From positions 1-64,000 of IMG/VR virus record IMGVR_UViG_3300003873_000003: DNA of 64,000 bases; one strand, written 5' to 3'. The notes beneath the pieces were generated by a model that did no database searches, was not told the origin of the DNA, and worked only from the letters and a program-made list of their open reading frames with translations. The DNA comes from a virus. Below, in pieces: positions 9,507-46,945 of this stretch (within the stretch, counting starts at the first letter, position 1; every line of letters begins with the position of its first letter). The translations under genes and the position numbers were made by a program.

Positions 9507-9543
9507 AGGTAGTGCCTCCTTCTTTCCGTCTTATGTTTTGTTT

Positions 9544-9573: not shown

Positions 9574-9631
9574 TGTTTTCAAATATGAAGGGCTTTAACC
9601 TTCAACCTGCATCGAGCCGTGAAAGGTAGGC

Positions 9632-14661: not shown

Positions 14662-15696
14662 TTATGTTCCAATGTGATTGGCGTATAGTGTATGTAGGCG
14701 AGGTGTGTATCTGAAATCCTTGAATAACCCCCAAGGGGTGCCTTCATAAACAAGCTCATTAACTCGGGACTGCATCGCAAGTGCTGTATCCATAGCGAGC
14801 ATGTTAGACGCATTATGCAGGTTATCACCCTCACCCATGAATAGGATAGGAGTACCAACAACCAACTTATGTTTTAGTTCAACTTCATTAAGGCTGCTCA
14901 ACGTCTGTAGGGGAGTGCTACTGTAACGTGCATGACACCACACTGATTCAACGTAGTTAAGCAGGATGTCATCGACCCAGTTTACGTTAAATGGAGGTTC
15001 GACATAGGAAGCATCCACCACAAACTTGATTTGCGCTTTACATCCTACAATGCACGCAGCGAATTGTGTAAGGATACCAACAGATAGTGGAGGTGTGTAC
15101 TCACCGCTTGTTGGCAGCTTAGGTGAAATGCTGAACAGGAATAGAGTATCAGAATCTGTGCAGCCCTTTGAGTCACAGATTTGTTTAATGATGTTACCTA
15201 GTTGGGTTGACAACACAATAGAGCCGTTAGTCTCTATTGTAACACGGCTGGGGTTCGCTACGGCAAAGATGGCAGTCAGAATACGTCCTAAGCCGTCTTG
15301 AGATAGCATAGGCTCACCTCCAGTTATAACAATGGGGGTTGTAGGCTTACCAATTCGGGAAGAGCTATCGAGTAACTTAGAGTACATATCAGCAAGCATT
15401 GTTGATATAGTCCCTACGGTAGTCAGGTGTCGGTAACGCTTATCCCACGAGTAGGGTGTATCGCAACCTGATTTAGTTGGTGGTACGTCAGCTAACGACT
15501 TGAGTGTAGCGGGGTCGTAGTCTAGCTCTTTAGACAGACCACACCCACCAAATTCAGGGCAGGTGAAGTTACACCCCCATAGCCGTAAGAACAAGGAAGG
15601 CTCACCTGCATAGATACCCTCACCCTGTATGGAGTAAAAGGTCTCCACATACCTAACTCGTGATTCACCTAGTTCGCCTAGCACTTCTATATCCAT
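14662..15696 (-). CDS. queE: QueE-like 7-carboxy-7-deazaguanine synthase
   Basis: A radical SAM enzyme of 344 residues. YSIQGEGIYAGEPSLFLRLWGCNFTC (written here in parts: YSIQGEG, GEPSLFLRL, GCNFTC) is the QueE opening. The iron-sulfur cysteines are C42, C46 and C52, a CX3CX5C spacing instead of the usual CX3CX2C. The SAM-binding TGGEPML and ETNGS motifs follow, near residues 125-160. QueE converts 6-carboxytetrahydropterin to CDG, the third step toward preQ0. The product is about 100 residues longer than compact bacterial QueE because of inserted segments. It has its own transcription unit ended by the terminator at 14628; FolE and QueC are encoded elsewhere in the window. Confidence 0.85.
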   Translation of the reverse strand: MDIEVLGELGESRVRYVETFYSIQGEGIYAGEPSLFLRLWGCNFTCPEFGGCGLSKELDYDPATLKSLADVPPTKSGCDTPYSWDKRYRHLTTVGTISTMLADMYSKLLDSSSRIGKPTTPIVITGGEPMLSQDGLGRILTAIFAVANPSRVTIETNGSIVLSTQLGNIIKQICDSKGCTDSDTLFLFSISPKLPTSGEYTPPLSVGILTQFAACIVGCKAQIKFVVDASYVEPPFNVNWVDDILLNYVESVWCHARYSSTPLQTLSSLNEVELKHKLVVGTPILFMGEGDNLHNASNMLAMDTALAMQSRVNELVYEGTPWGLFKDFRYTPRLHTLYANHIGT

Positions 15697-16528: not shown

Positions 16529-18457
16529 TTATTTATTCTTTTCAATCAAATCTTTAATGTAGCTCATAGACTTATCGCTGGGTATAACTGTTATACTCAA
16601 GGTGCTTGCTTTAGTTAGCTTACTGCTACCAACACCCGAACAAAACAAAGCGGTAGTCTTCTTGGTCACGCTACTTCCAATGCGTCCACCCTCTGATTTA
16701 ATCAGAGATTCTAGTTCGGGACTTCTAAAATTAGTAAAGACAAAAGATGTTCCCTCAAGTGCAGTACCTACAGTGGGAAGCTCAACTCTCTTAGCCTTTA
16801 GCTTATGCTTCTCAAGGAACGGAACAAACTCCCTAGCCCCGTTAGACAAGGCTCTTGCGGTCAAATGTCCAATGCGTTCAACGCTACGCAAGTCCTCGAC
16901 TGACACCTTAGTGAAAGGGAAATCAGGGAAAGCCCGAATTACAGGTTCAAGGGTAGTGCGTCCACAGTTAAGAAACAAGTTAGAGGCTAACATTAAATCA
17001 ATTAAATCATGCTCACGCACACGGAACTGGCGAAGGATAGAAGGCAAGTTATTGGGTCCGAACCCTTCCACCTTAGACAGAACTTCCATAAGGCGTTTAG
17101 TGGGACGTAAGATTCTATCCAAAGGTGCATTATCAAGCATAGCCTTACACGTTGAGTAGCCTACATCGGTGAACCCTAGCTTTTGTACGTAGTTGAACAA
17201 CCAACTAACACGGCGTTCGGGGCAGTTATAAAGACCAGCCATACAGACTAAGTGACGGTCAACGCTGACAAGCTCACGTCCGCATGAGCAGTGGGTAGGG
17301 AGCTTAAAGTTCTTGCAAGGTTTTGACTTGGCGATGTTTGGTATAACGTCACCGCTTTGAACAACCAGCAACGGGCTTCCTTTCCCTATCTTACGTTCTC
17401 GCAACCATTCCGAGTTATTACCAGTTGCGTGGTCGTTATCCTTACCATTGAAGTTCAAGGTAGGGTAATAGATTATGGGGATTAGCTTACCATCCTTAGA
17501 AACCTGCCACTCAACACGGTCACACTTTGTTTTCTGCGTGTCTTGGTCTGCGGCAGGGAGCTTAACTGCAATAGCTGCCAATGGTTTATAGTCAACGAAA
17601 CCTGCCTTCAAGTATGCTTTAGAATCGTTAGACATCAACACAATGCCATCATAGTTGTAGTCACTGGGGTACTTAGAAAGCATCCTTTCGAGTAACGCCT
17701 TGTTGATTTTCTTCGTGTTGGCGTACACCTTATGGCGAACTGGAGTAAACCCTAAACGCTTTAAGGTGGCAAGTTCTTCGGGATATGTTGCATCGAACCC
17801 TAGAATCTTGAACGCTCGGAAGTCTAACTTAGACGCTGGGTTTACTTCACTTAGCTTCTGATTGCGTAACGCACCATTGACAAATCCCCGATGGAACTTG
17901 TAGTCCTTGTAAGCCTTGTCCTTCTGTATTGCTGCAAAGACATCTCTGCGCACCACAGCCTCGCCACGAATGAAAGTAGGTTTTCTAAGCTTGATACGTT
18001 GGGGGATAGAGCTTAGGGCTGATACAGCTAGTGTAACATTTAATGTTGTTTCTGTGTCCCCACCAGTGTAAGCGGCTACCAGCCTACCTGCACGGTACTC
18101 AAGCAACAAGGTTAATCCATCGTACTTCCAAGAGATAGTAGTACCCCCTTTCAGTACTTGGCGAGGGATGTCATCTGTAGGGCGTGTCTTATTCAAACTG
18201 CCTATAGGTTCGGGTGTTATCGGTGTTGGTACAGATTGACCGTTAACGGTATCCTTTATAGGGGCTCGTAGCTGCGAGTACGGTGGTATCCCTTTCTTCT
18301 TTGCCATCAAGTTGTAACGCTCAACTGCCCTGTCAAACTTAGCATCAGAAACAATGGGGTTCTCACTGTCGTTGTAGTACGCATCTGCCCATGCACGTAG
18401 CACATTCAAGCGTTCTTCCATAGTCATACCTTTCTTCATCACGATAGGTTTAGTCAT
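16529..18457 (-). CDS. ligA: NAD-dependent DNA ligase
   Basis: A 642-residue protein with the adenylation motif KYDG at residues 111-114, GEAVVRRDVF, and the later VDYKPLAAIAVKLP lysine motif. A four-cysteine zinc finger (HCSCGRELVS...LVCMAGLYNCPERR), a helix-hairpin-helix region near residue 470 and a C-terminal BRCT-like domain (GTSFVFTNFRSPELESLIKSEG) follow. It seals nicks during phage replication and recombination. Most phage ligases are ATP-dependent, so a full bacterial-type LigA is notable. A terminator-bounded promoter region precedes it. Confidence 0.93.
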   Translation of the reverse strand: MTKPIVMKKGMTMEERLNVLRAWADAYYNDSENPIVSDAKFDRAVERYNLMAKKKGIPPYSQLRAPIKDTVNGQSVPTPITPEPIGSLNKTRPTDDIPRQVLKGGTTISWKYDGLTLLLEYRAGRLVAAYTGGDTETTLNVTLAVSALSSIPQRIKLRKPTFIRGEAVVRRDVFAAIQKDKAYKDYKFHRGFVNGALRNQKLSEVNPASKLDFRAFKILGFDATYPEELATLKRLGFTPVRHKVYANTKKINKALLERMLSKYPSDYNYDGIVLMSNDSKAYLKAGFVDYKPLAAIAVKLPAADQDTQKTKCDRVEWQVSKDGKLIPIIYYPTLNFNGKDNDHATGNNSEWLRERKIGKGSPLLVVQSGDVIPNIAKSKPCKNFKLPTHCSCGRELVSVDRHLVCMAGLYNCPERRVSWLFNYVQKLGFTDVGYSTCKAMLDNAPLDRILRPTKRLMEVLSKVEGFGPNNLPSILRQFRVREHDLIDLMLASNLFLNCGRTTLEPVIRAFPDFPFTKVSVEDLRSVERIGHLTARALSNGAREFVPFLEKHKLKAKRVELPTVGTALEGTSFVFTNFRSPELESLIKSEGGRIGSSVTKKTTALFCSGVGSSKLTKASTLSITVIPSDKSMSYIKDLIEKNK

Positions 18458-26207: not shown

Positions 26208-26864
26208 TTAAGATAAGGGCTTCCTGTCAAGTCGGTCTAGCATCCCATAGTATTCAGCTTTGCAGGATGCGTTATCTAAGAAGATACCCCTAACCTCGGT
26301 CGTGGCAGTATAGCTTGGTGACTCAACTCCTCGACATTCCATGCAGGAGTGACGTGCTACGATAGACACTGCGCTACCTTGAGAAGGTATTTGGGGGAAC
26401 CAGTTAGAGGAACCGTCACGATAGAACACATCAGCAATATCTTTACACAACTGCTCTTGCAATACAGGTCGCTTCGACAATGATTTAACGATGCGTGCAA
26501 TCTTGGATAGACCCAGAACCACACCGTCCTTAGAAGGCATGTAGGCAACAGACACGTCAAGGAACACAGGTAGCAAGTGGTGAGGGCATAGACCCGAAGC
26601 TCGTATAGGGCTTTGCAGAACAATACCGTTAGTGGTGGTGTTGGCTGCGAACTCCGTGGGGAACGCCGTTGAGCATATCGTAAGCAATTCGTTACGGATT
26701 GTTTCTTTGGTTAGGCACATCTCAGACATAGCCCGAGCGCATCTCATAGGCGTATCTTCGAGGTTGTCCATCTCCGCCCTAGATAAATCACCATCACGGT
26801 TGAAGTAATCAACAATAGTTTTGTAGGCAGTAACCAGCTTGGGGTCAACGTTTTTGTTTTTCAT
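26208..26864 (-). CDS. folE: GTP cyclohydrolase I
   Basis: A 218-residue enzyme with the family signatures: GLCPHHLLPVF with the zinc cysteine and histidines (about residues 92-102), VLGLSKIARIVKSLSKRPVLQEQL, and HSCMECRGVE with the second zinc cysteine. It turns GTP into 7,8-dihydroneopterin triphosphate, the entry to both folate and 7-deazaguanine synthesis. Together with QueE and QueC in this window, the 7-deazaguanine route is the better reading. It is longer than the T-fold core because of an N-terminal extension typical of the enzyme. Confidence 0.92.
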   Translation of the reverse strand: MKNKNVDPKLVTAYKTIVDYFNRDGDLSRAEMDNLEDTPMRCARAMSEMCLTKETIRNELLTICSTAFPTEFAANTTTNGIVLQSPIRASGLCPHHLLPVFLDVSVAYMPSKDGVVLGLSKIARIVKSLSKRPVLQEQLCKDIADVFYRDGSSNWFPQIPSQGSAVSIVARHSCMECRGVESPSYTATTEVRGIFLDNASCKAEYYGMLDRLDRKPLS

Positions 26865-32963: not shown

Positions 32964-33179
32964 TCAAAATAAATTCCGTGCATAAGGTGGTAACTTGTCT
33001 TCGGGCTTCAATTCAGCTAGTGCCTGTACCCGAAGCTCCAGTATCCGAATAGAGTTGCTTACGTGCAACGGTACACTACTACCAAGTGCATCCAACCGAG
33101 CCTTGGTGTACAAAAGCGAATCAAGCTCTTTTTTAGTGGTCTCTATCACCGAAGCTAAATCACCCATCTGTAGCACCAT
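32964..33179 (-). CDS. Small coiled-coil protein
   Basis: A 71-residue helical protein (DLASVIETTKKELDSLLYTKARL). The start is uncertain: ATG at 33179 or 33167, or GTG at 33191; none has a strong ribosome binding site, and the gene overlaps the end of the upstream one. Function unknown. Confidence 0.5.
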   Translation of the reverse strand: MVLQMGDLASVIETTKKELDSLLYTKARLDALGSSVPLHVSNSIRILELRVQALAELKPEDKLPPYARNLF

Positions 33180-33636
33180 CGGTATCCGCACGGGAGTGAC
33201 CCGATGAGTCCATAGCGGTAAATACGTTTAATTCACCACGCCGCACCCCCAGCGTGGCACTTAGGGAAGTTAATGTTGGTAGCCCCTGATACGTGGTAGC
33301 CCCTGATACAGTATCCACATGCAGACTTTCTTTTTCGTCTTCATTACCATGCGTGTCATGTTTAGGAATAGGTGTGCCGCATGAACGGAGGCGGTACACT
33401 TCATCAATACAGTTCAGCAATGAATCTTGGTATATCCGCAAAGACCTCCGCAACGACTCAAAGCTATGAATCAGAGCAGCGTCAGGGGCAAAGCCTGACT
33501 CGGATAGACTCTCGACATACCCATCTAAGTGAGCTAGGTAGTCCCAAGCCTCCGCCTGTTTCTCATACAGACTAGCCTTCATCTCTCCCCAGAATGCTCC
33601 ATCTATGGTTTCATTTGCGTGTGCATCATCAGTCAT
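33160..33636 (-). CDS. Unknown protein with a P-loop-like remnant
   Basis: A 158-residue protein coupled by ATGA to the acyltransferase gene. The first 85 residues are helical. Near the end, GVRRGELNVFTAMDSSGHSRAD resembles (in parts) the RRGELxVxTGxxGxGKS opening of DnaB/KaiC-type ATPases with the Walker lysine changed to His, and the protein stops 10 residues later. It may be a decayed or chance match. Function unknown. Confidence 0.5.
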   Translation of the reverse strand: MTDDAHANETIDGAFWGEMKASLYEKQAEAWDYLAHLDGYVESLSESGFAPDAALIHSFESLRRSLRIYQDSLLNCIDEVYRLRSCGTPIPKHDTHGNEDEKESLHVDTVSGATTYQGLPTLTSLSATLGVRRGELNVFTAMDSSGHSRADTDGATDG

Positions 33637-34646
33637 AGTAACTCCTTATTGTTGGTAGGTGATGGTACTGAAAGTTGGGTTGTGAGCCCTGCACCTTTAT
33701 AGAAAGAGAAGCAAGGCTTGCTATAGAAACCCCAACTCTTCTTCCACCCATTATCGTAAGACAACGGCTCTATGCGTCTTCCTTCCGCTACAGCAAAGCA
33801 AGATTGTGTTATGTAACCATTAACAGATTTATGACGCTTATGTCGAGTCCCTGACATGAACATCGTAAGCGAGTGCTTATTGCCAATCAAGATAACAACG
33901 GCAGCAAGCTCGTTTGTGTGCCTATCTGTAACACACAAAGCGGAAACCTCGTAGGAGCAACCCTTATCAAGCAGAGCCGACACTAAAGCATCAACATCAG
34001 GGACTGCATACTGCTCGAACCTGTAAGCGTTATCACCAAAACGCTCTTTCTGCATTTCTTTAACTGCCTCAATGTGGTACAAGCTGATAGGGGAAACTTC
34101 ATAGTAATACTTCTTGTTTAACCGCTTCAAACTATTTCGGATACGCCCACGTTGTTTGTGGTTACACGCATACTGCAAGTGGGACTCCCAATCCATTTCC
34201 GAGTAGAAATGGTCAGACGAGTATTTCACAGTAACTGGTCCCGTATCCGTGTGTAGCACCATAGTGTCACCGACATTTGGCAGATTGAAGTTCGTATTCA
34301 AGAACGGTTGGTTATCAATCACCGAGCCGCTAGGAAGACTATCAGCAATAACACTCATCCAGTCCTTACTTGAGAAAGGGTGTGCAGCACTTGGGGTCAT
34401 AGAGGACAACGAAAAGTCGCTGTCAATCTCAACGTAGTTAGAATACTCACCATTGTAGCACCCATACCTGCAAAGAGGCAAGTAAACAACATCACTCACC
34501 ACTGCACATGGAGGTTCCGCAAGATGCTTATGCCAATGCTCCGTCCACTCTAGGGTGGCTTGCACAGACGGCTTCTCGATACAAGATACCCTCCTCTCCC
34601 TATCACGGATAAACTCGCTTCCAGTAATCATATCAGGCTGGGACAT
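33633..34646 (-). CDS. FemAB/BioF2-like GNAT acyltransferase
   Basis: The start at 34646 follows AAGGAGAGG. The 337-residue product has the double-GNAT look of FemAB and Acetyltransf_6 proteins: RGRIRNSLKRLNKKY opens the acyl-binding half, then KEMQKERFG, CVTDRHTNELAAVVILIGN and SYDNGWKKSWGFYSKP. Such enzymes transfer acetyl or aminoacyl groups to amines. It lies last among the modification genes and overlaps the lysine 2,3-aminomutase gene by 14 bases. Acylating a lysine-derived amine is the simplest guess, by analogy with ablA/ablB beta-lysine acetylation. Confidence 0.7.
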   Translation of the reverse strand: MSQPDMITGSEFIRDRERRVSCIEKPSVQATLEWTEHWHKHLAEPPCAVVSDVVYLPLCRYGCYNGEYSNYVEIDSDFSLSSMTPSAAHPFSSKDWMSVIADSLPSGSVIDNQPFLNTNFNLPNVGDTMVLHTDTGPVTVKYSSDHFYSEMDWESHLQYACNHKQRGRIRNSLKRLNKKYYYEVSPISLYHIEAVKEMQKERFGDNAYRFEQYAVPDVDALVSALLDKGCSYEVSALCVTDRHTNELAAVVILIGNKHSLTMFMSGTRHKRHKSVNGYITQSCFAVAEGRRIEPLSYDNGWKKSWGFYSKPCFSFYKGAGLTTQLSVPSPTNNKELL

Positions 34647-35715
34647 GTCTGACCTCTCCTTCATAGTTAATAAGCGTATTAGTATCACCATCGGTTATAA
34701 TCACCCTAGCAGGCTCTAGGGGTATCTTGCCAATGCCACCTTCACCATCCACAACAAACGTAGGCATGGCAACACCGCTGATATACCCCCTAAGTTGGCA
34801 TACGAGTGTTTGTGCATCTTGCAGACTGACTTCAAACTGTGCGTTACCTAACTCACGGTCACAGGTGTACACGTAGTAAGGTCGAATACCGATAGACACA
34901 AGGTGCATAAACAGGGTCTCAAGGGTATGGGCGTTATCGTTGATGCCTTTCAACAGCACAGTCTGACTTCCTAGTGTTACCCCTGCGTCACGCAGATTGT
35001 TTACACCATCAACAAATATCGGTGTAATCTCTTTCGGATGGTTCACATGGATATTCAAAAGCACGTTATAATCACGCAGCAACTTACAGAATGCTGGGGT
35101 TAGTCGGTAAGGATTCTGTACAGGCATCCGTGAGCTGATACGAAGAATCTTGATGTGAGGTAGTGCCCGTATCTCTTTGAAGAGGTGTTCAAGAACGGTG
35201 TCGCTCATCAACAAGGGGTCTCCGCCTGACAGAAGCACATCATTTATTTCTGTATGCTTTTGCAGGTACTCAAGTGAAGCCATGAGTTGACCTTTCGATA
35301 TGTAATCATCCTCCCCAGATACCATACGTTTGCGAGTACAGAATCGGCAGTACGCAGCGCAAGTGTTCTGAACAAGGAAAAGGACACGCTTAGGGTAACG
35401 GTGGATAATGCTCGTACCTGCGATTCGATGACGTTCCTCATTGAGAGGGTCTTCCTGCTCAACATCAGACACATCTAGCTCTTTCTTCGAGTAGAGGTAC
35501 TGCTTACGGATAGGACAGTCGGGGTCATCAGGCGACATTAAACTTAGCAGATAAGGTGTTACACCTACCTTGAGTAACCCATGTGGGGGTACATCATCAG
35601 GCACATTCGATAAGTATATGCGCAATCCATCCATACTTCGCACACTACGCTTTATCTGACTGCGCCAACTAACGTCATCAAAGCACATAGGGTCTGTAGC
35701 CATCGTTTTACTCAT
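34633..35715 (-). CDS. Lysine 2,3-aminomutase (KamA/AblA-like radical SAM enzyme)
   Basis: The start at 35715 overlaps the upstream gene. The 360-residue enzyme has RYPKRVLFLVQNTCAAYCRFC in parts, with iron-sulfur cysteines C119, C123 and C126, and LLSGGDPLLMSD for SAM and PLP phosphate. The PLP lysine is K330 in GEGGIGKIPL. Asp286 (YTCD) and Asp323 (FVVD) fall 37 residues apart and Asp323 lies 7 before the PLP lysine, exactly the spacing of Asp293, Asp330 and Lys337 in the clostridial enzyme, where the aspartates hold the lysine side-chain amine. So it should make L-beta-lysine. Rare in a phage. Confidence 0.85.
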   Translation of the reverse strand: MSKTMATDPMCFDDVSWRSQIKRSVRSMDGLRIYLSNVPDDVPPHGLLKVGVTPYLLSLMSPDDPDCPIRKQYLYSKKELDVSDVEQEDPLNEERHRIAGTSIIHRYPKRVLFLVQNTCAAYCRFCTRKRMVSGEDDYISKGQLMASLEYLQKHTEINDVLLSGGDPLLMSDTVLEHLFKEIRALPHIKILRISSRMPVQNPYRLTPAFCKLLRDYNVLLNIHVNHPKEITPIFVDGVNNLRDAGVTLGSQTVLLKGINDNAHTLETLFMHLVSIGIRPYYVYTCDRELGNAQFEVSLQDAQTLVCQLRGYISGVAMPTFVVDGEGGIGKIPLEPARVIITDGDTNTLINYEGEVRHVPA

Positions 35716-36817
35716 GGGATGAACCTTGGATGAACAGCACCAGCTCATGTGGTTCGAGAACACCACCCCAAGCTTTAGAGAAAGAAGGTGAGATAGCTTC
35801 GGTCAAGTCCTCACCCACCATAGGTACGAACTCGGGGCGAGGTAAGCCTAGGTGAGCAGAGCGACCATCTTCGTGTGCATCATTATTCGTATCAGCGGCG
35901 AACCCCATGTGAACCATAGGAAACCCATCGTACAGAGCTTCGTGGTCACGCAAAGCACGTTGCATGGAAGATACGAGTTCCCCTGTAGTCCACGGTCGAA
36001 TCTTGACAGCCTCATCCAACTTAATGTCAGCTACAACACGAGTTTCACCGTCAGACTTAGAGTGGGACTCTTCCACAACGACATTCTTATGATAAAGCTC
36101 GATGCTGTTATTGAATAGGTTACGATGTGTGACAACTGTGTACGAAACATTCAGAGTAGAACTGGAGCGTACAATGCCATCAGCGATTAAATCCTTACCG
36201 ATGTCAGTATCTGTACTCAAAGGTGTCCAGCAGTCAGACTCGTACTTATCGTGGAAGGGTGTGTACACACCGAAAGGAACGATGTTAAACTGGGCATAAT
36301 AGTCATCACCGTGCTTAACAGCATTATTAAGCAGGTTGAGGAAAAAGTCATCCATTTCAGATTCGGTCTGCAAGGCATTCAAGCTGTAATAGTACCCCAA
36401 CACTAAGTTTGTGCCTTCGGGTATAGTACAGTGAGTGGCATCGGCTGTTTCTAACCCTGCACCGTTGTCATTCAGTTCGGTTATCGTATAAGAGCTTACA
36501 TCGACTGTGGGGGAGAAGTATCCAGTGAGTTTGGAATAGTAATCCTTCCCACCAAACAACTCAACAACGTTCGCAGAGGACAGGGACTCAATGAAGGGTT
36601 TGCCAAGCTCATAAGCAGTAGTTCGCTCAAAGTCAGCACTATGGGGGAACGTTATGCCTTCAAACTCACCGTTCAACACAGTACGCAATGTTTCTCGAAG
36701 AAGGAGAGTGTCGTACAAACGAGCATGTGGGTCAGGGGCAGTAACAGCCTCGTACACGGCGGCATGGTGGTAAAGAGATTTTGCATAGTAACATAACTTG
36801 CGGTCTTTTGATTTCAT
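35708..36817 (-). CDS. Methyltransferase-like protein of the modification cluster
   Basis: A 369-residue protein. NVVELFGGKDYYSKL (about residues 82-96) occupies the place of the SAM-binding loop of a class I methyltransferase. VDVSSY could be the next acidic strand. ADATHCTIPEGTNLVLGYYYSLNAL resembles motifs II-III. The catalytic core cannot be fixed and the glycine loop is atypical, so the call is tentative. It ends in an EPHELVLF strand. It follows the ATP-grasp gene after an AAACTGTAAATG motif and overlaps the aminomutase gene by 8 bases. Confidence 0.5.
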   Translation of the reverse strand: MKSKDRKLCYYAKSLYHHAAVYEAVTAPDPHARLYDTLLLRETLRTVLNGEFEGITFPHSADFERTTAYELGKPFIESLSSANVVELFGGKDYYSKLTGYFSPTVDVSSYTITELNDNGAGLETADATHCTIPEGTNLVLGYYYSLNALQTESEMDDFFLNLLNNAVKHGDDYYAQFNIVPFGVYTPFHDKYESDCWTPLSTDTDIGKDLIADGIVRSSSTLNVSYTVVTHRNLFNNSIELYHKNVVVEESHSKSDGETRVVADIKLDEAVKIRPWTTGELVSSMQRALRDHEALYDGFPMVHMGFAADTNNDAHEDGRSAHLGLPRPEFVPMVGEDLTEAISPSFSKAWGGVLEPHELVLFIQGSSHE

Positions 36818-36900: not shown

Positions 36901-38568
36901 TTATGGCTTAGGGTTATGACCTGTAGCCCTATCCATAATACGCTCTAACATCTCACTATAGAACCCCTCAAATAAAGTACCGTTGTAAACACAGTCAGAA
37001 CAAGCAGGCTCGATGTATTCTTGGATGCGTGGGGAATTAGGTCGCATTTCAAACACTGTACTAAGAACGGCAACACGCCCACCATGCGAAAAGAACCCAT
37101 CTGATACAACATCATAGTACACGTCAATATACCGCATATCAACAGTGCCTTGCTGTAAGAACGCTCCAGTCGGTGTTCCTCTGCGTGTATCAGGGTAGTG
37201 AACTGCCTTGGGTGTGCGGAAACGGTCGGCAGCAAACGAAAGGTCGATAAGCGATAACCCAAAACTTTCAGGGTATAGCAGCGGTACTATCGTGTTGCGG
37301 GGGTCTGACCAAGAGTAAGTGTTCGGTGCGTTGTATGAATAGAAGTAGTCTAGGAACTCAAAAGGGCTTGGGTGTAAGATAAGACTGTCTTCTGTATCAG
37401 CACACTCCGAAGGCGCAGGCTCCATCTCACCAGCTTGCATTGCAATCGTTGCGAAGTTGCTATTCGCAAGTCGAGTCATCCACTCGATACCATAAGTAAT
37501 AGAATCATCGTGACCCATAATAAACGTCAAGTCTATGACCCCAGTGTATTCAGGTGCATTGTCAGCCAACCACGCACCTAACCGACCTGCAATTACCTCG
37601 GGGTACATGAACCGCTTGAGGCGTTCAGATGTAAGAGACACATGGTAAGTAGCAACATCACCAAACTTGGGACCGCAGCCGCCATACTGATTGTCATGGA
37701 ACAAACGATTATCCTCAATCACCAACACGCCATTCCCCACGTGACCTTGAGCAACAAAATAGGAAAGGCTGAACTCAATACCTTCGATAAAGTCTTGGAT
37801 GATGATGGGGTAAGGTAGACCCTTGCCGTTTTCGGGACGCAAAGTCAAAGCACCAATAGACTGACCACGAAGTTCCTTTACGTACACCTTTTTCGAGGTG
37901 TCATCAACGGCGGAGCATACACCGCACCAATCTTCCTCATCTTGAACCGTGACCGTTTTAGGTGTAGCGATACCGAGAGAACGGAACGCCGCATCGCCAA
38001 CACTACGAACTAACTCTAAGTCCCGTGCGGCTTTCGGTGTTCTGGGGAACAGGTTGTACGGCAAGGGTTTACCCTTCGCAACCTTGGAATTGGCTACGCC
38101 TTTATAGATGATGTCATCCAACCATTGATAGAACGGTTTAGTCTGCGCCTGCTGTGCAACTTGTTTGGAACGGGGCTTAGTACGACCACCTTTCGTTGCA
38201 CGGATGTCATCCATAGTTCTTGCGTGCTGGATACCACAGGCAGCAGGGTACACCACAGTCCCACTACCATTCTTCTCGGTAACAAAGTGATGTACGATAC
38301 GCAGCGTAGCTTCCAACGAAAAGGCGTACTCCGACCCACCAATGGAGTGAGGAATCAAGCAGGCAGTTGGATGGTCTGCAAAATAATCAGAGGCAGCGTC
38401 CCTGTTACCGATAACCAGTGTGTTAAACAAAGAAGGTTCAAAGGCTGTACTATCCCTCACCTGCTCCATAGACAAAGAAAAACGAGGTACAAGCAGATTG
38501 AAAGATTTGGTCTTGGGGTCACCGACCGTAATAACACGGTAGTCGTCAATAGAAAATTCGTCACTCAT
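36901..38568 (-). CDS. PurD-like ATP-grasp ligase
   Basis: A 555-residue protein. The central 200-390 region is an ATP-grasp domain: KVYVKELRGQS, IIIQDFIEGIEFSLSYFV, GGCGPKFGDVATYHV (compare the GARS GGMGAYSP loop) and GIEWMTRLANSNF in the place of the metal- and ATP-binding end. An N-terminal domain of about 190 residues and a C-terminal part of about 160 with a CSDC pair flank it. ATP-grasp enzymes join a carboxylate to an amine via acyl phosphate; PurD joins glycine. It overlaps the second QueC-like gene by ATGA. Joining an amino acid to a modified base is the likely task. Confidence 0.75.
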   Translation of the reverse strand: MSDEFSIDDYRVITVGDPKTKSFNLLVPRFSLSMEQVRDSTAFEPSLFNTLVIGNRDAASDYFADHPTACLIPHSIGGSEYAFSLEATLRIVHHFVTEKNGSGTVVYPAACGIQHARTMDDIRATKGGRTKPRSKQVAQQAQTKPFYQWLDDIIYKGVANSKVAKGKPLPYNLFPRTPKAARDLELVRSVGDAAFRSLGIATPKTVTVQDEEDWCGVCSAVDDTSKKVYVKELRGQSIGALTLRPENGKGLPYPIIIQDFIEGIEFSLSYFVAQGHVGNGVLVIEDNRLFHDNQYGGCGPKFGDVATYHVSLTSERLKRFMYPEVIAGRLGAWLADNAPEYTGVIDLTFIMGHDDSITYGIEWMTRLANSNFATIAMQAGEMEPAPSECADTEDSLILHPSPFEFLDYFYSYNAPNTYSWSDPRNTIVPLLYPESFGLSLIDLSFAADRFRTPKAVHYPDTRRGTPTGAFLQQGTVDMRYIDVYYDVVSDGFFSHGGRVAVLSTVFEMRPNSPRIQEYIEPACSDCVYNGTLFEGFYSEMLERIMDRATGHNPKP

Positions 38569-39278
38569 AGCTCAACTCCTAGTTCTTTGAAAAGTTCATC
38601 CACTTCGATACAAATGGGGCATTCATGGCAAGGTTCAGCATACTCGCAGCTTTGAGTACGCGCAAAGTCAATACCCATTGAAATGCCAAACTGAATAACC
38701 TCACGCTTCGTTAGGGACTCAAGCGGTGCTGTGACCAAGAAAGGCTCTGCGAAGGATGAAAAGATAGTGTCGTTCACCTGTGTATGGATTTGGCGGCAAG
38801 CATCCCGACCACGCATTAGGTTCAAGTCTGTGTTCATACCCAATTCAGATTGGTTGGATTGGAACCCCGTAGCTAAGCGGTTACAGCCGTTATAAGAGGC
38901 AACCGTGGCTGCCATGAGCATGAACAAAGGGTTGCGCCCATTAAGGAATCCCATCTCGGTGTCGGTCAGTACACAACAGTCATCACGATGGACACCTTTC
39001 TTTTGCAACTCGTAGTCTTCTTGGAAAGTAGGAACAGAGGTCAACTTACTGTAGTCCCAATCAATAACGTGCGTCTTAACTGTGCAACCGCAGTAATTTG
39101 ACAGGAAGTTTGCGTGCCAGTTCATATTGCGTTTCATGGTTTCAAAGTTCGCATTGCCTCCATTCACTAGGATTAACATGCCTAGTGAGCCAGCCTCTGC
39201 CAACATGTACGCAGCTACAGTGCTGTCGATACCTCCACTGTAAAGTACGGCTTGTTTCTTCTCAATCGGTTTTGTCAT
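38565..39278 (-). CDS. Second QueC-like (ExsB family) PP-loop enzyme
   Basis: The start at 39278 follows AAGGAGATG. The 237-residue product has the PP-loop SGGIDS at residues 14-19, NGRNPLFMLMAATVAS in the place of the QueC RNGVMLSVA segment, and a zinc-type cysteine set CEYAEPCHECPIC near the C-terminus. It is a clear QueC relative but well diverged from the QueC encoded next to it. QueC adenylates the carboxylate of CDG to make an amide and then a nitrile; a paralogue could activate the same group for another amine, or act on the modified nucleic acid. ATGA-coupled to the ATP-grasp gene. Confidence 0.8.
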   Translation of the reverse strand: MTKPIEKKQAVLYSGGIDSTVAAYMLAEAGSLGMLILVNGGNANFETMKRNMNWHANFLSNYCGCTVKTHVIDWDYSKLTSVPTFQEDYELQKKGVHRDDCCVLTDTEMGFLNGRNPLFMLMAATVASYNGCNRLATGFQSNQSELGMNTDLNLMRGRDACRQIHTQVNDTIFSSFAEPFLVTAPLESLTKREVIQFGISMGIDFARTQSCEYAEPCHECPICIEVDELFKELGVEL

Positions 39279-39303
39279 AACATCTCCTTGTTTTGTAGTC
39301 ACA

Positions 39304-39313
39304 ATTTACACTT
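39304..39313 (-). promoter_or_regulatory. AAGTGTAAAT boundary motif
   Basis: Minus-strand AAGTGTAAATTGTGAC touching the queC stop and only 25 bases before the next start, which is short for a classical promoter plus leader. Confidence 0.45.
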
Positions 39314-39993
39314 TACCCATCTTCATACAGCGTAGGGTCAACAATGCCTGCCAACGAAAAGGCTAAACGGCGTTCCGTACAAGTACCGCACTTACCACAG
39401 TGGGTCACCCCACCTTTATAGCAACTGTATGTTTCTGCGAACGGTACACCCAAGCTTGCACCGATAGATACAATTTCGTTCTTAGTCAACCCACCGAAGG
39501 GGCTTACAACTTCAACACCACCGTATGTGCCTAATGAAGCAGCCTTACTCATAGCAGTTGTGAACTCGGTACGGCAATCGGGGTAGATGGCGTTGTCTCC
39601 TTTATGCGAGGCTAGGTAAACATGGTTAAGCTTACGGGCTTCTGCGATAGCTACAGCCACAGACAACATCACACCGTTACGGAAAGGAACCACAGTGCTA
39701 CGCATCGTAGCATCCTCGTAGTGACCTTCAGGGACGTCACCTGCACCCGAAATCAAGGAACTCAGCTCACCTAAGCTGCATTGGTTGAAGACGTTATGCA
39801 AAGGTATGACGAGGTGCTCCGTGTTAGTGATAGAGCAGTTACGAGAGGCACATTCGAGTTCTCGCTCATTGTGATTTGAACCGTAGTCGAACGACACCGC
39901 TAGAGCAGGCTTCATTTGGTACAACAGAGTGGTACTATCTAGACCCCCACTGTAGATTAAGATACCAGTATTTTCGAGAATGTTAGGTTTCAT
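39313..39993 (-). CDS. queC: 7-cyano-7-deazaguanine synthase
   Basis: A canonical 226-residue QueC: PP-loop SGGLDS at residues 15-20, FDYGSNH, VPFRNGVMLSVAVAIA, then FGGLTKNEIVSIG and the zinc site CYKGGVTHCGKCGTCTERR (written here within limits). It converts CDG to preQ0 with ATP and ammonia. The start overlaps the ArcS-like stop as ATGA, so the two are cotranslated. With FolE and QueE it supplies preQ0; QueD is not visible here. Confidence 0.92.
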   Translation of the reverse strand: MKPNILENTGILIYSGGLDSTTLLYQMKPALAVSFDYGSNHNERELECASRNCSITNTEHLVIPLHNVFNQCSLGELSSLISGAGDVPEGHYEDATMRSTVVPFRNGVMLSVAVAIAEARKLNHVYLASHKGDNAIYPDCRTEFTTAMSKAASLGTYGGVEVVSPFGGLTKNEIVSIGASLGVPFAETYSCYKGGVTHCGKCGTCTERRLAFSLAGIVDPTLYEDG

Positions 39994-41138
39994 TTTGAAT
40001 CTCCATTTGAATCATTTACTTTCAGAATACACCGCTTTAAGGAGTACAAACGGTCAGGGTCAAGCAGGTCAAGATAGTCAGGATAAAACTTCACAGGATT
40101 TACATATTGTACTTCGGGCTTATACCCATCAGGCAAGTCACGTAAGGCGGCTTCAATAGCTTGATTGTAATAGTCACAGTAAGAAACAATATGCACAGGT
40201 TTATGTTTGATGATATACTTCCTAACCTGCTGCATAGCACGCCAGTCATTAGGCACGCCACTATCGTACATAGGTGCTACACCCCAGAGGTCTTGAGGTA
40301 CGATACCTAGAACACCAGTAACGATAGCAATAGTCCAAGTATCAATCCAGTCCTCATCAGGGGCTTCACAAGAAGCGAGTGTATCCATGACGGCTTTGTG
40401 CATAGGGGAAGGGTACGGCTTATCCGCAGCACATGGAACGAGTAGCAGATTCGAGGTTGGATTTGAAGGGCTATAATCATCTAAGTCCTCCAAGTAGTCC
40501 AGTACAGTTGGTCGGTGGAACCCTCCGTTGTTAGTCACCACGAAAGACTTATCATGCAACCCTACACACCAATGAGGCTGAAAGCCTTGCACATCAAGCT
40601 TCCACAAGAAATCCGTAAGCTCTGGGCGCATAGAGGCAGACCACTCGACAGCCGAGCGTGTAACCTCCAAATCAGTGAAAGTCAACGCCACGTCCTCCTC
40701 AAATTCTACAGTAGGTAACTGCACTTCAACCCCCATGTAACGCAAAAGCATACACCAAGAAGAGGGAGGATACTTCGCAATGACTTTAGGTGCATCTTTT
40801 AAGTCGCCCGTACATTGGGTCGGTAAGAGAGGAGCGAGCGTAGAAACGTACCCATCCTCATCCATGTTAAAGTCCCGCCATGTAAAGTTTGGGTTGGCAA
40901 GCTGGAACAGCTTTTTGAACAACGTCATGTAGCCTTGATAGGTGTCCTCATACGACTCGCCTTTATTAGGCGCACTCAAGTAAATGGTGTAAGTCTCTTG
41001 TGGGTCTTCGTCAGACAGACCTAGTGTGTGGTTACAAGGGTAACCAAACAGCTCACCGTGGATACAGGGGACTCCACTGACCTTTACGTGTGAGCTAAGG
41101 TCTTCGGGTGTAGGTGACGGTAGTTCTTGTTCATCCAT
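39990..41138 (-). CDS. ArcS-like (archaeosine synthase core) protein
   Basis: A 382-residue protein, first gene of the cluster. Residues 231-350 match the ArcS catalytic domain: LLLVPCAADKPYPSPMH (residues 231-247), where PCxxxKPY with K240 equals the active motif, then VTGVLGIVPQDLWGVAPMYD in the place of the ArcS SPLGVVPREL and PAAHYD segments. In archaea this domain attaches lysine to the nitrile of preQ0 in tRNA. The first 200 residues are unlike archaeal ArcS and I see no TGT domain. Start at 41138 with GAGGAGAG. It may add lysine or a relative to a 7-deazaguanine base. Confidence 0.75.
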   Translation of the reverse strand: MDEQELPSPTPEDLSSHVKVSGVPCIHGELFGYPCNHTLGLSDEDPQETYTIYLSAPNKGESYEDTYQGYMTLFKKLFQLANPNFTWRDFNMDEDGYVSTLAPLLPTQCTGDLKDAPKVIAKYPPSSWCMLLRYMGVEVQLPTVEFEEDVALTFTDLEVTRSAVEWSASMRPELTDFLWKLDVQGFQPHWCVGLHDKSFVVTNNGGFHRPTVLDYLEDLDDYSPSNPTSNLLLVPCAADKPYPSPMHKAVMDTLASCEAPDEDWIDTWTIAIVTGVLGIVPQDLWGVAPMYDSGVPNDWRAMQQVRKYIIKHKPVHIVSYCDYYNQAIEAALRDLPDGYKPEVQYVNPVKFYPDYLDLLDPDRLYSLKRCILKVNDSNGDSK

Positions 41139-41739: not shown

Positions 41740-44700
41740 TTATTTGCTACGAACATGGATTGCCCGTAGTTCGTCCAACACGCCCTCTTTGTTGATGATA
41801 CCAACGTCACGAGAGATTGACTCCAGAACCTGTTTAGCTTCCGCAGGTGTCTTCAAGAACAAGAACTTGCGTGATGGCTCTAAACGGAACTTAACGCCGT
41901 TCACATGCAATGAAGGCAAGTGAACCGCACTAGGGGCACGATTAGATACAACAATATACAGCTCACCATCTTGAACCATTGGGTATGGCAACAACGTACC
42001 TTTAGGGATAGGTTTCTTCTTCAAGTTCCAGAAGTTCACAATATCCTTCCAGTTAGACCGTGAGATGTCACTGATACGCTTGTTACGTGGCAGCATCTCC
42101 AAGAAGTCCTCAAGCTTGTCCATGCGAGATTGAGGTATGTTGAACGTGATACCTTTACGCTTGCCATTGGATTTCTTAGACTTCTTAACTGTAGGTGCCA
42201 CAGTGCTATCAGCAGGAATACCTGCTAAGAAAGCATCCAACAATTCATCAAGCTGCTTACGCTTAGTAATGTGAGCAGCCCAATAAGCACCAACATCCTT
42301 GAAGCCATGCTTGGATAGAACGCCTGCATCAGGGTCATCACTAAGAACAGACAACACTAGATGCTCATTGAAGCTTCCTGCATACAACTCGACACCTTCG
42401 TCCTCTTCGTCAATCTCCTCCCCGAATGGTGAGGCAGAAGACTTAGCCTTGCCTTTAGCCTTAACCTTAGCTTTAGGCTTGCGAGTCTTACGTGGCTCGG
42501 CAGGCTCATCAGCAGATTCATCCTCGCCGTCAGCCCAGCTATCAATGTCCTCATCAGTAAACCCATCGGACTCGTCATCGTCTTCTTCGATTTCAAACTC
42601 GTCATCGTCTTCTTCGATTTCAAACTCGCCGTCATCGTCTTCTTCAAGTTCTTCTTCAAAGCCATCGAACATGGATTTGCCTGATACACTCAACATGTCG
42701 TCCCACAAGCTTTCGCCTTCCTCACTAACTTCATCCTCGAAGCGGAAGAATACGCTAGTAATAGGGAACGATACTTTGCGTTTGCCACCAGCAAGCATAA
42801 CTTGTAGGCGGGTCTTACCAACCTTAGTTACCATGCCAGCACCAAGCTCTGTAAGCACAGTCTCACCATACAGTGAGTTCTCATCACCTTCATGGCGTGT
42901 AAGAAACTCGCCTACAGTAACCAACCCTAGGGCTTCGGCGTTCGGCAGGCTTTCAGGTGACATGCCGGGGATAAACGGCTGGTCATCGAGTTCCTTGTAG
43001 TCCTTCGGTGCAGGAAGAGCCACCACAGGAATCATCTCGGGGAACTCTTTGCGTTTAGCTTCAAACTCCCTATCCTCAAACTCCTTGATGCCTTGGTAAC
43101 CATCGAGGTACTTAGCTAAGGATTCTTGAGTCCTAAATTGGTCAAAACTCTGGGTATTCATGGTGATAGTACCAAGAGACTCAAACGCATTGCTGTCATA
43201 GTAAGGGTTGTCAGCTTCCGTAAAGTTCAGGTTACTGATAGTCTTACTAATCAAGCGGGCTGTCTTAGCCATCTCCATACTACCTTCGATAACGAGCCAG
43301 TCAAAGTAGATAACCTTGCCTGCATCGAAGTTATTAACATCAGGGCGGAAGATACGAGACAATGCTTGGTCGTGGTCTCCTGGAGCCCATACAGACTGCA
43401 CACGAATCAACCGAGTACAGAACTGGAAGTTGAAGCCAGTGTTAAGGGTCTTCTCCGTTGCAAACAAAACAACCTTGTTAGGGTCAGTGTAAAAAGAAGA
43501 CAAATCAGTTTTGTGCTTACCATGGTAAAGGATAGCTTTATCGCCATGACGGGATGCTTCCATCAAGTGTTCCACAGCAGATACGTTTGTTGTGAACACA
43601 AGAATCTTACCTTTTGAAGCTTCTGGGTCTGCCAAATGAGCATCAATCAGGTCATCCACCATCTTCACTTTAGGGCTGATTAAGTCTTCGCCTTCCAACA
43701 ACTCACGACCACCATCGGAAGTGCTTGGGTCCACTACAAACTGCTCTAGGTCAGTCAATGAGTTCATCAACTTGGATTCAAGCATCTTCATAGAGGCAGC
43801 ATCTTTCTTGCGGAGTAACGCCTTGTAAGCGGGGTCAGATTTAACCTTCTCCAACGCTTCTTGCAACATCAAGTCATGCGTTGTTTGTTGGTTAGGGCTG
43901 AACTTACCAAAGTGCATCTTCTCAACCAACGTAGGTAACATAAACGCCCAGTCACTACGTTTCGCACTCAAAGAGGCAGCGTATGGTGCTAAGGTATCCT
44001 GAATAGCTTTAGCCGACTGAGGGGTCAACGCACCATTCTCATTCATAAACTTAGCTTTGAAGTTATTGACGTTATAGAAGATAGAGCCGTCAATAAGGTT
44101 CCCAAGACCTACCAAGTCAGCAACAGTGTTAGACACCAAAGTACCTGATGCGAACCGCTTGTACTTAGCCCCCATGATAATACGGTTAGCCGCAATACTA
44201 CGTTGGCTAGTAGGGTTCTTCAAGTTGTGGCTTTCATCCATAACAACTAAATCACACCCCAACTCTGCTATCTTGATAGCATTCAAGTAAAGGTCAACAT
44301 GCTCACCGCCGAACGCAACGGAGGACTTGTTAGACATACTCAAGAAGTTGTACGACACAAGGAAGATAGTGTTACGAGGTGCAGCCTTCGCCATCTCGAA
44401 TAGGTCACGACCTTCACGCTCCCAAAGGTTCACTGTATCAGAGTGGAAAGGGAAGAAGTTGATATTACCATGTGTGAATTTGCGAATCTCGCCTGCCCAT
44501 TGCGACAATAACTGCCCTGGAGCTAACAAGATAGGACGTTTCACACGACCTTCACTCATCATAGTCAAGATGTCCAAAATAGACATACATGTTTTACCAC
44601 CCCCAGGCTGTACAGACATCATAGCCGCAGGTGAGATACCGTCATCGTCAAGCTTGTGCAAAATCTTGGCTTGGTGAGGGAACACTTTAGTCCCAGGAGC

Positions 44701-46572
44701 CACACCAGCGATTTCCAAAGGTACTTTAGCTTCCTCTGCACTAACTACAGCCTTGTTCTTCTTACACAATTCAGCGTAGTCAGATTTCAGCTTGTTGATA
44801 GAATCAATATCGCCATATTTACGAATCCACACAAAGAAAGGATGGTTACGCAAAGCAGTGGTGTACGTGTGGGTCTTAGACAACACAGCAACATCATCGA
44901 AGGGATGACGAAGATACTCGACCACAGTAGCGCAAACAGCACGCTGAACGAAAGCATCGGGCAAGTATGTATCAGGGTCTAGTTCATCTGTAGAGAACAA
45001 GTCCTTAGAAGCCAGTGGAAGACGACCGTTACTATCAACAGAAAGGAAGTCAGCACCAGTTAAGGTATCACGTGGACCACGACCTGCATATTGGCTCAAG
45101 AATAAATCAGCAGCTTTAGCTAAGCGAGCAGCATCCTTCCCACCATACTTCAACTTGCCTACATCTTCCATTGCTTTCGCAAACATGGTTTCCCACAAGT
45201 CATGCAGTTCAGGGGTTGCGCCCATATAACCAAGAATAAGCAAATACGTGTCTAGGTTCTTAGACAACAAGTAACGGATAACGTAGGCATGAGGCGGCTT
45301 AACACACCCACGAAGGTTAGTGGTGACAGGAGTCAAACTCGAATGGTCTATAGTCAAGTAAAGCTCTGATACCCAATCCTCATAAATAGGTAATGCTTTA
45401 ACTGCACCCAAGATAGCCCGATACTTATCCTTATGTTCTGAATCAACATCGGAAACACCATAGATAACTTTACCCGTCTCGGGGTTATACAAGCTATCCA
45501 TCAGGTCGTAGTATGCAGCAACAGCACCTTTACTCACAGGTGGTAAGTACATGCACTGACCCGAACTCAAGATAACGATGCGCTCGTCCTCATCGTAACG
45601 ACCTTTCAGGTGAGGTGAGTTTGGAACACTAGACTCCAAGTTCTCCAATGTAACGTTGCGAGCCATAGGCTTAGGCTTATCACGTTGCTTTCCGCTAGGG
45701 ATAAAGCGGCTTGCCCACTCGTAAGCAGGTGCAATGCGGAAGTTGTCCTCGGTAGTACCCGTACCCCATTCAAGTAATGCCTTTGGTACATTGATTGTCA
45801 TGTGTCCCCTGACAGTACCTTCAATAACATAGGCTTGTCTTCCAGTGCGCAGAAACACGGAAGTAGAGTTCTTCTCAATGCTATACTCGGAGTTACCATC
45901 CTCGTCTTCTTCCAAAGCAACCTTAGAATCAAGTTCCATGGTCAGCTTGATTGTTGGAGACAGTAGCTCCATCATAGACTCGGCAGCAGCACCTCGGAAG
46001 CTGTTAGGCGCACCGACAGTATCACCGATGTCATCATCGCTATCAAGTGTAGGAAGCAATACGGACTCTTCTGATAACGCATCCATCCAAGCGTCAATAG
46101 GCAACTCGATAGAAGCAGTACCGCCTTGCTTGACGGCAGAACGCCATAAGTCAGCCAGTTCTTCGACAGCAGGTGCAGGAGCATCAGCGATGCGAGCCAC
46201 ACGGATGAAACCTAGACTGTAGGTAATATCATACGATGTGCCATCGTCATTCTCCAACATGACAATGCGTTCTTTCTTAGAAGCCTCCATGACACGACTT
46301 AGAATACTACCGTCATTGACGCTAGGAAACAAAGAGTCATTCTTAATCAAGAACTTAGAGTCCCGTTGCAAGTCCTTCATAGGGCGAGGGTCTTGCAGGT
46401 GTTGGTAGGCACACACGGCAGTGCGTTTTGCACTGTAATAAAACGGCTCGAAGTTGGATGCCAAGGTCTCACCTAGGCTATCAACGCCAAGGGCATATCT
46501 GCTATTTCGGGATTTCTTTGCGGACGTTACAGGTGTAACATCACGATGGGAGCTTTGGCTTCCACTAAACAT
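41740..46572 (-). CDS. Giant SNF2-family DNA translocase/helicase
   Basis: The start at 46572 follows GAAGGAGG. A 1610-residue protein. The SNF2 motor lies around residues 600-1100: VFPHQAKILHKL, Walker A QPGGGKT, PILLAPGQLLSQW, the DESH box (VVMDESHNLKN), and later KILVFTTNVSAVEHLM, LNTGFNFQ and DQALSRIFRPD. About 600 unknown residues precede it. After it comes an Asp/Glu-rich linker with EIEEDDDEF repeats and a Lys-rich stretch, then a 180-residue end domain. Possible roles are remodelling of DNA-bound proteins, or anti-restriction if injected. The size is like very large phage enzymes such as DarB, but no methylase motif is seen. Confidence 0.85.
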   Translation of the reverse strand: MFSGSQSSHRDVTPVTSAKKSRNSRYALGVDSLGETLASNFEPFYYSAKRTAVCAYQHLQDPRPMKDLQRDSKFLIKNDSLFPSVNDGSILSRVMEASKKERIVMLENDDGTSYDITYSLGFIRVARIADAPAPAVEELADLWRSAVKQGGTASIELPIDAWMDALSEESVLLPTLDSDDDIGDTVGAPNSFRGAAAESMMELLSPTIKLTMELDSKVALEEDEDGNSEYSIEKNSTSVFLRTGRQAYVIEGTVRGHMTINVPKALLEWGTGTTEDNFRIAPAYEWASRFIPSGKQRDKPKPMARNVTLENLESSVPNSPHLKGRYDEDERIVILSSGQCMYLPPVSKGAVAAYYDLMDSLYNPETGKVIYGVSDVDSEHKDKYRAILGAVKALPIYEDWVSELYLTIDHSSLTPVTTNLRGCVKPPHAYVIRYLLSKNLDTYLLILGYMGATPELHDLWETMFAKAMEDVGKLKYGGKDAARLAKAADLFLSQYAGRGPRDTLTGADFLSVDSNGRLPLASKDLFSTDELDPDTYLPDAFVQRAVCATVVEYLRHPFDDVAVLSKTHTYTTALRNHPFFVWIRKYGDIDSINKLKSDYAELCKKNKAVVSAEEAKVPLEIAGVAPGTKVFPHQAKILHKLDDDGISPAAMMSVQPGGGKTCMSILDILTMMSEGRVKRPILLAPGQLLSQWAGEIRKFTHGNINFFPFHSDTVNLWEREGRDLFEMAKAAPRNTIFLVSYNFLSMSNKSSVAFGGEHVDLYLNAIKIAELGCDLVVMDESHNLKNPTSQRSIAANRIIMGAKYKRFASGTLVSNTVADLVGLGNLIDGSIFYNVNNFKAKFMNENGALTPQSAKAIQDTLAPYAASLSAKRSDWAFMLPTLVEKMHFGKFSPNQQTTHDLMLQEALEKVKSDPAYKALLRKKDAASMKMLESKLMNSLTDLEQFVVDPSTSDGGRELLEGEDLISPKVKMVDDLIDAHLADPEASKGKILVFTTNVSAVEHLMEASRHGDKAILYHGKHKTDLSSFYTDPNKVVLFATEKTLNTGFNFQFCTRLIRVQSVWAPGDHDQALSRIFRPDVNNFDAGKVIYFDWLVIEGSMEMAKTARLISKTISNLNFTEADNPYYDSNAFESLGTITMNTQSFDQFRTQESLAKYLDGYQGIKEFEDREFEAKRKEFPEMIPVVALPAPKDYKELDDQPFIPGMSPESLPNAEALGLVTVGEFLTRHEGDENSLYGETVLTELGAGMVTKVGKTRLQVMLAGGKRKVSFPITSVFFRFEDEVSEEGESLWDDMLSVSGKSMFDGFEEELEEDDDGEFEIEEDDDEFEIEEDDDESDGFTDEDIDSWADGEDESADEPAEPRKTRKPKAKVKAKGKAKSSASPFGEEIDEEDEGVELYAGSFNEHLVLSVLSDDPDAGVLSKHGFKDVGAYWAAHITKRKQLDELLDAFLAGIPADSTVAPTVKKSKKSNGKRKGITFNIPQSRMDKLEDFLEMLPRNKRISDISRSNWKDIVNFWNLKKKPIPKGTLLPYPMVQDGELYIVVSNRAPSAVHLPSLHVNGVKFRLEPSRKFLFLKTPAEAKQVLESISRDVGIINKEGVLDELRAIHVRSK

Positions 46573-46945
46573 TATCACTTCCTCCTTCGTATAAAGAGAA
46601 CTCATAAGCACCCTGCGAAACACTGTCCCACAAAGGGCTATTAGGGGTGTACTCGCCTAACTCGGATAGTAGGGTATCTGCAAGCTCTTTGGCGGCATCT
46701 TCGCCAAAGAGTAACGCAGCTCTATCAAAATAGGCACTATCATAGAAGCTGTAATCACCGATAGACGACAACATCTCGTCCCGCATAGCTTCTAACGCAG
46801 GCGCAAGGGCATCGAGCTTACGCTGGGCAACTAAACCAGCTCGCTTACTACGAGCTAAATCCAACGTAAGCCTATCCAGTTCGGCTACGAGTTCTTCTTT
46901 CGTACTATCATGGGTATAAGCCATAACAGGTATGTATGCTTTCAT
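46565..46945 (-). CDS. Unknown helical protein of 126 residues
   Basis: The start at 46945 follows AAAGGAGAG. The first 60 residues are helical (ELVAELDRLTLDLARSKRAGL) and the end is acidic. The stop overlaps the start of the SNF2 gene by 8 bases, so the two are cotranslated; it could be a partner or chaperone of that ATPase. Confidence 0.6.
   Translation of the reverse strand: MKAYIPVMAYTHDSTKEELVAELDRLTLDLARSKRAGLVAQRKLDALAPALEAMRDEMLSSIGDYSFYDSAYFDRAALLFGEDAAKELADTLLSELGEYTPNSPLWDSVSQGAYEFSLYEGGSDNV

Follow-up and report, generated by a model that had tools for sequence, protein, structure and literature searches.

A predicted lysine 2,3-aminomutase encoded in a 7-deazaguanine operon of jumbo phages suggests beta-lysine as a candidate building block of phage DNA hypermodification

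The analyzed window, comprising the first 64,000 nucleotides of the viral contig IMGVR_UViG_3300003873_000003, encodes an intact enzyme of the KamA (lysine 2,3-aminomutase) family within an operon of 7-deazaguanine genes. On balance, we favor the reading that a phage-encoded 7-deazaguanine DNA hypermodification uses beta-lysine as a building block. This placement in the deazaguanine pathway is based on the coupled operon, the co-occurrence of the genes in 11 phages and the repeated recruitment or replacement of kamA. The identities of KamA, QueC1, QueC2, the ArcS-like protein, the ATP-grasp enzyme, FolE, QueE and DpdA, together with the operon and the co-occurrence, are shown by sequence. The activity, the order of steps, the linkage and any protection of the DNA are inferred, and there are no DNA chemistry data.

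The kamA open reading frame (34633..35715, minus strand) comprises 360 codons with zero internal stops. Starting at the ATG at position 35715, it shows an 8-base overlap with the upstream gene, resembling its coupled neighbours; an in-frame GTG at 35766 would alternatively give a protein of 377 aa. Using phmmer, the product matched PDB 2a5h, the Clostridium subterminale lysine 2,3-aminomutase, with 281 bits (E 9.5e-83, residues 30-371 of the 376-aa query), and it scored 280 bits against the KamA family model TIGR00238 (cut-off 199). Alignment with 2a5h assigned C119/C123/C126 to the clostridial C125/C129/C132 (radical SAM CxxxCxxC motif), R128 to the carboxylate-binding R134, D286 and D323 to the side-chain-binding aspartates D293 and D330, and K330 to the PLP lysine K337. 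The spacing between the two aspartates (37) and from the second aspartate to the lysine (7) is identical in both enzymes. The preliminary description had named the three cysteines, the PLP lysine, both aspartates and this spacing, all of which were confirmed. This agreement in residues and spacing is far beyond chance, and the product is an intact KamA-family radical SAM/PLP enzyme.

In order to assign its substrate, we compared NCBIfam subfamily scores, which ranked AblA (lysine) first with 332 bits, followed by the arginine (300), glutamate (291) and EpmB (229) models. The AblA equivalog cut-off of 525 bits was not reached, as was likewise the case for the Shewanella and Rhodoferax enzymes encoded in genuine beta-lysine or lysine-fermentation operons (340 and 328 bits). 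The Shewanella gene lies two genes from ablB, whose product passes the AblB cut-off with 301 bits, and the Rhodoferax gene adjoins kdd and is located near lysine 5,6-aminomutase. Because these context-validated proteobacterial enzymes fail as well, the AblA cut-off has no diagnostic value within this clade. The equivalents of D293 and D330 are retained in four of four cluster phages (window phage, Lauda, GR11A and GR7B); at the D330 position, the alignment showed Thr in two annotated arginine 2,3-aminomutases and Glu in E. coli EpmB. EpmB is known to use lysine as well, and the second aspartate is therefore consistent with lysine but not strictly required for it. Of the 80 nearest cellular homologues that were fetched, 78 adjoin such genes: 13 loci contain ablB and 65 others kdd or kamD.

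In an IQ-TREE phylogeny, phage KamAs and proteobacterial lysine mutases form one clade (support 100/99), separate from EpmB and arginine mutases. Since no glutamate 2,3-aminomutase sequence was included in this tree, the exclusion of a glutamate mutase relies on residues and profile score. Overall, the phage enzyme is very likely a lysine 2,3-aminomutase in activity, as inferred from residues, profiles, tree and homologue contexts in the absence of activity data. The true lysine specificity claimed in the preliminary description is thus supported by several independent lines, and the comparison with KamA and EpmB that it had proposed as a check favors a lysine mutase; its second claim, that the enzyme is not a glutamate mutase, has the narrower support just given.

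As EpmB belongs to the same superfamily, phage KamA could conceivably serve the beta-lysylation of EF-P or another protein in the fashion of EpmB/EpmA. Against this, the phage KamAs stand apart from EpmB in the tree, and the 118-kb contig, which is possibly incomplete, yielded neither an EpmA-type synthetase (PF00152) nor an EF-P domain (PF08207). EF-P modification was rejected on these grounds and protein beta-lysylation in general is all but excluded; the initial remark that no EpmA-like ligase adjoins kamA, so that EF-P modification is not suggested, held across the whole contig.

The more informative finding, overlooked in the preliminary description, is the operon itself. It runs on a single strand from 41138 down to 33160 (~8 kb) and is tightly packed, mostly with overlapping gene ends: from the ArcS-like gene to the last, 158-aa ORF, the gaps are -4, 10, -4, 83, -8, -59 and -4 bases. 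The gene order is ArcS-like, QueC1, QueC2, ATP-grasp, methyltransferase-like, kamA, a 352-aa protein and a 158-aa protein, all on the minus strand.

The ArcS-like protein (39990..41138, 382 aa) matched Pfam DUF5591 with 34.2 bits (cut-off 26), is 42-44% identical to the GR11A and GR7B copies and contains an invariant VPCA.DKPYP.PMH stretch in the DUF5591 core (about residues 233-246). A PC...KPY...H motif is generally associated with ArcS. Against the full-length ArcS profile (NF040592, E 4.6e-12), it reached 45 bits compared to a cut-off of 440 and matched only the middle of the model; since this cut-off was missed, we name the protein ArcS-like only. QueC1 (39313..39993) is a canonical-like 7-cyano-7-deazaguanine synthase (TIGR00364, 162 bits, cut-off 150), retaining SGGxDS, YPDC and four Cys in the alignment. 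The diverged paralogue QueC2 (38565..39302; PF06508, 64 bits) retains the ATP motif SGGxDS and the Cys motif and is without the YPDC stretch. QueC is described as recognising the deazaguanine through Tyr and Asp residues at positions i and i+2 (Y129 and D131 in B. subtilis; PMC13279940), and it is possible, by inference, that this pair corresponds to the YPD of the YPDC stretch.

The 555-aa ATP-grasp protein (36901..38568) is a carboxylate-amine ligase with a PurD-like core. Its single-sequence Pfam match is weak, but the family profile matches solved ATP-grasp ligases, including the PurD structures 2xcl (E 9e-7) and 5vev (E 6e-5), and homologues are present in all KamA-cluster phages. The assignment of the 369-aa product of 35708..36817 as a class I methyltransferase-like protein is weak: it relies on an hhalign comparison with two Lauda cluster proteins (E 6.5e-4, with a low match probability of just 27%), one of which has itself a weak Methyltransf_31 match (E 0.03). 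In Lauda, two related methyltransferase-like genes (7979-9846) are located immediately before kamA. The 352-aa ORF (33633..34691) overlaps kamA by 59 bases, so a later start is likely. It gave no match in profile searches, and a FemAB/GNAT-like nature is no more than a possibility inferred from reading the sequence. Neither the 369-aa nor the 352-aa protein had phage homologues in tblastn searches. The 158-aa protein (33160..33636), which has a 4-base overlap with the 352-aa gene, is of unknown function.

Further deazaguanine genes are encoded elsewhere on the contig. These are FolE, the GTP cyclohydrolase I catalyzing the first step to preQ0 (26208..26864, minus strand; PF01227, 120 bits; phrog_2197), a QueE-like radical SAM protein (7-carboxy-7-deazaguanine synthase; 14662..15696, minus strand; phrog_2076, 119-122 bits) and, outside the window, a DpdA/TGT homologue (contig 75566-77215, plus strand; Pfam TGT 29.6 bits, cut-off 26.3), which was recognised via homology to TGT-like ORFs of other cluster phages. 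FolE, QueE, the QueC pair and DpdA were all found in the window contig, Lauda, GR11A and GR7B. QueD was not found in the contig, whose 118 kb probably represent only part of the genome; GR11A and GR7B have a QueD-like gene, and Lauda shows a weak match. The window also encodes a 1627-aa protein with SNF2-type helicase domains (41740-46623) just upstream of the operon and an NAD-dependent DNA ligase with a BRCT domain (16529-18457).

Phages are reported to carry the deazaguanines dPreQ0, dPreQ1, dADG and dG+ (Hutinet 2019, PMC6884629). With the known modification systems of 9g, CAjan and nt-1 (PMC6884629), the window phage shares FolE, QueE, QueC and DpdA/TGT as well as an ArcS homologue, as in nt-1, whereas the lysine mutase, the ATP-grasp ligase, the second, diverged QueC and more tailoring genes are additional. 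Compared to archaeal ArcS/RaSEA archaeosine synthesis (PMC11298593), the phage ArcS-like protein shares the DUF5591 core and a PC...KPY...H-type motif. However, it comprises only 382 aa, with its match confined to the middle of ArcS models of 515-575 positions, and RaSEA was not identified in the phage.

Screening 50,697 phage records by tblastn, we detected the KamA clade in 11 jumbo phages: Vibrio phages GR11A and GR7B and nine P. putida vB_PpuM phages, in which kamA is annotated merely as a hypothetical protein. This count excludes KamA matches in huge phages and in bacterial contigs. Four records (OR845382, CAKLQF020000018, AFYI01000007 and AGRM01000005) were set aside as phage KamA, as their KamA-family stretch resembles bacterial chromosome and is EpmB-type; in CAKLQF020000018, efp neighbours the KamA-family gene. 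In searches seeded from Lauda and GR11A, the ATP-grasp family and one FemAB-like family were confined to the same 11 of 50,697 records. The DpdA subfamily occurred in 18 of these records, all of them large phages and including all 11 with KamA; Xanthomonas PhiXhv, Erwinia Ep032, NCTB and Motura have this DpdA without KamA. In the three genomes examined closely (Lauda, GR11A and GR7B), kamA is clustered with the QueC pair and the ATP-grasp gene.

KamA homologues were also found in two huge phages (LR756500 and LR756501) and two IMG/VR contigs, whose records lack FolE, TGT or a QueC above cut-off. The link between KamA and deazaguanine genes is therefore specific to this clade, and the huge-phage homologues, lying outside any deazaguanine cluster, indicate that phage KamA can serve other uses. 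LR756501 additionally contains a class II synthetase-like 291-aa ORF far from KamA, which has not been shown to be EpmA. Among viral contigs, a KamA-only search for close relatives gave none, a search with a four-row KamA alignment gave two distant loci only, both without the cluster, and an ATP-grasp search gave no match. Outside viruses, a KamA-family gene whose product has Cys in place of Asp330 is present on plasmid B of Sinorhizobium americanum. The next gene is biotin-carboxylase-like (ATP-grasp-type), which mirrors, in a cellular replicon, the pairing of KamA and ATP-grasp genes in the phages.

The phage kamA genes do not share a single history. In the IQ-TREE phylogeny, the Vibrio phage KamAs group with Shewanella, Psychromonas and Ferrimonas (support 100/96), the Pseudomonas phage KamA groups with betaproteobacteria (100/98), and the window KamA branches at the base of the phage/proteobacterial clade. 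A single clade of all cluster-phage KamAs was rejected (p-AU 1.1e-13, four rows), as was one of the non-window cluster-phage KamAs after removal of the longest branches (p-AU 1.4e-6, three rows). Since the lineages branch apart among bacterial genes, kamA joined the cluster, or was replaced in it, more than once. This is the simplest and likely reading, to be taken with caution given the long branches and the biased choice of bacteria. Such repeated entry is hard to explain unless the product of kamA is used in the deazaguanine cluster.

KamA could also represent an auxiliary metabolic gene that diverts lysine or supplies a solute, either beta-lysine or N-acetyl-beta-lysine, with the deazaguanine neighbours being incidental. 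In favor of this, the nearest cellular homologues lie in osmolyte (ablAB) or lysine-fermentation operons, and a small GNAT gene directly follows kamA in GR11A. However, the coupled operon, the exact co-occurrence in 11 phages and the repeated entry into the same cluster make this explanation unlikely. Compared to KamA/AblA of C. subterminale (2a5h), Shewanella (ablA) and Rhodoferax (kamA), the phage enzyme is alike in its full-length match and in all catalytic and substrate-binding residues, whereas the phage gene is part of a deazaguanine operon, and ablB, kdd and kamD were not found beside it.

In the hypermodification pathway that we favor, KamA would convert host L-lysine to L-beta-lysine during infection, and FolE, QueE and QueC1, with a host or undetected QueD, would provide preQ0, which DpdA would swap for guanine in the phage DNA. 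The tailoring genes beside kamA would then add side groups to the base. Most likely, the PurD-type ATP-grasp enzyme, the constant partner of kamA, would activate beta-lysine at its carboxylate and couple it to an amine of the modified base. For two of the three lineages, this acceptor amine may stem from an ArcS-type addition of lysine to the nitrile. The ArcS-like protein and QueC2 would prepare or vary the attachment point, and QueC2 and the methyltransferase-like and FemAB-like proteins may contribute further tailoring. There are precedents for such chemistry: T. kodakarensis ArcS uses preQ0 as the acceptor of L-lysine (PMC11298593), and in a phage, glycine is attached to a DNA base by an ATP-dependent ligase (PMC12783734). 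The latter, the CmoX/CmoY carboxymethylcytosine-glycine system, likewise uses ATP to ligate an amino acid to a base of phage DNA, but it differs in using cytosine instead of deazaguanine and an asparagine-synthetase-type ligase, and it has no mutase making a special amino acid.

No DUF5591/ArcS-like gene was found in Lauda, and ArcS is therefore not a universal attachment step. Conversely, eleven further viral contigs (L124-L134) contain ArcS-like genes, mostly with QueC nearby and with no KamA in the stretch read; as such modules frequently occur in viral contigs in the absence of kamA, kamA is not needed for the ArcS-like/QueC step. Two of them (L131 and L134) have a QueC2-type paralogue alongside the ArcS-like gene, and in L128 a DpdA-like gene lies beside the module. 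In Xanthomonas phage PhiXhv-12 (9406-18663), an ArcS-like gene belongs to a gene run that includes an L/F-tRNA-protein transferase, an L-glutamine-D-fructose-6-phosphate aminotransferase (so named after a PHROG that QueC matches as well), a deacetylase and a glycosyltransferase, according to their annotated names. This run has no KamA and could represent another candidate cluster for deazaguanine hypermodification, distinct from the one described here.

These distributions bear on two alternatives. It remains possible that the direct conjugation of beta-lysine falls to QueC2 or the ArcS-like enzyme, giving an amide from 7-carboxy-7-deazaguanine or an amidine from preQ0, with the ATP-grasp and FemAB-like proteins extending the side chain by other groups. 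QueC2 has the ATP motif without the YPDC stretch kept in QueC1, Cap9, which is related to QueC, links 7-carboxy-7-deazaguanine with an amine (PMC13279940), and the ArcS reaction with L-lysine cited above points in the same direction. However, the constant partner of kamA is the ATP-grasp gene and not the ArcS-like gene, and L131 and L134 combine an ArcS-like gene with a QueC2-type gene in the absence of kamA. Alternatively, the substrate of KamA might be, instead of free lysine, a lysyl adduct that the base already carries, such as ArcS-made preQ0-lysine, with KamA taking the place of RaSEA as the radical SAM enzyme working with ArcS. Archaeal ArcS indeed works with the radical SAM enzyme RaSEA, which processes the lysine adduct (PMC11298593), and kamA is likewise a radical SAM gene in an operon with an ArcS-like gene. 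This is nevertheless very unlikely, considering that both aspartates binding the free side-chain ammonium are retained, that Lauda has kamA without an ArcS-like gene and that many ArcS-like modules lack kamA.

Returning to ligation of beta-lysine by the ATP-grasp enzyme, a bolder version can at present be neither preferred nor dismissed: some guanines in the DNA of these jumbo phages would be replaced by a positively charged, beta-lysine-bearing 7-deazaguanine, built by the phage lysine mutase and the ATP-grasp ligase and possibly lengthened by FemAB-like transferases. In the literature searched, we found no report of beta-lysine on phage DNA or of the DNA composition of these cluster phages; the searched text of the phage deazaguanine paper (PMC6884629) does not mention lysine, and that of a jumbo-phage survey (PMC7824862) does not mention an aminomutase.

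As cultured phages share the cluster (Vibrio GR11A and GR7B; nine P. putida vB_PpuM), the hypothesis is directly testable. If true, a beta-amino acid would join the list of groups that phages attach to their DNA bases, and radical SAM amino-acid chemistry would be tied to DNA modification. Cationic groups would then line the DNA, which could prevent restriction enzymes from acting and also influence packaging, and the presence of kamA in a deazaguanine cluster suggests, by inference, that decoration with beta-lysine may hide phage DNA from bacterial defences.
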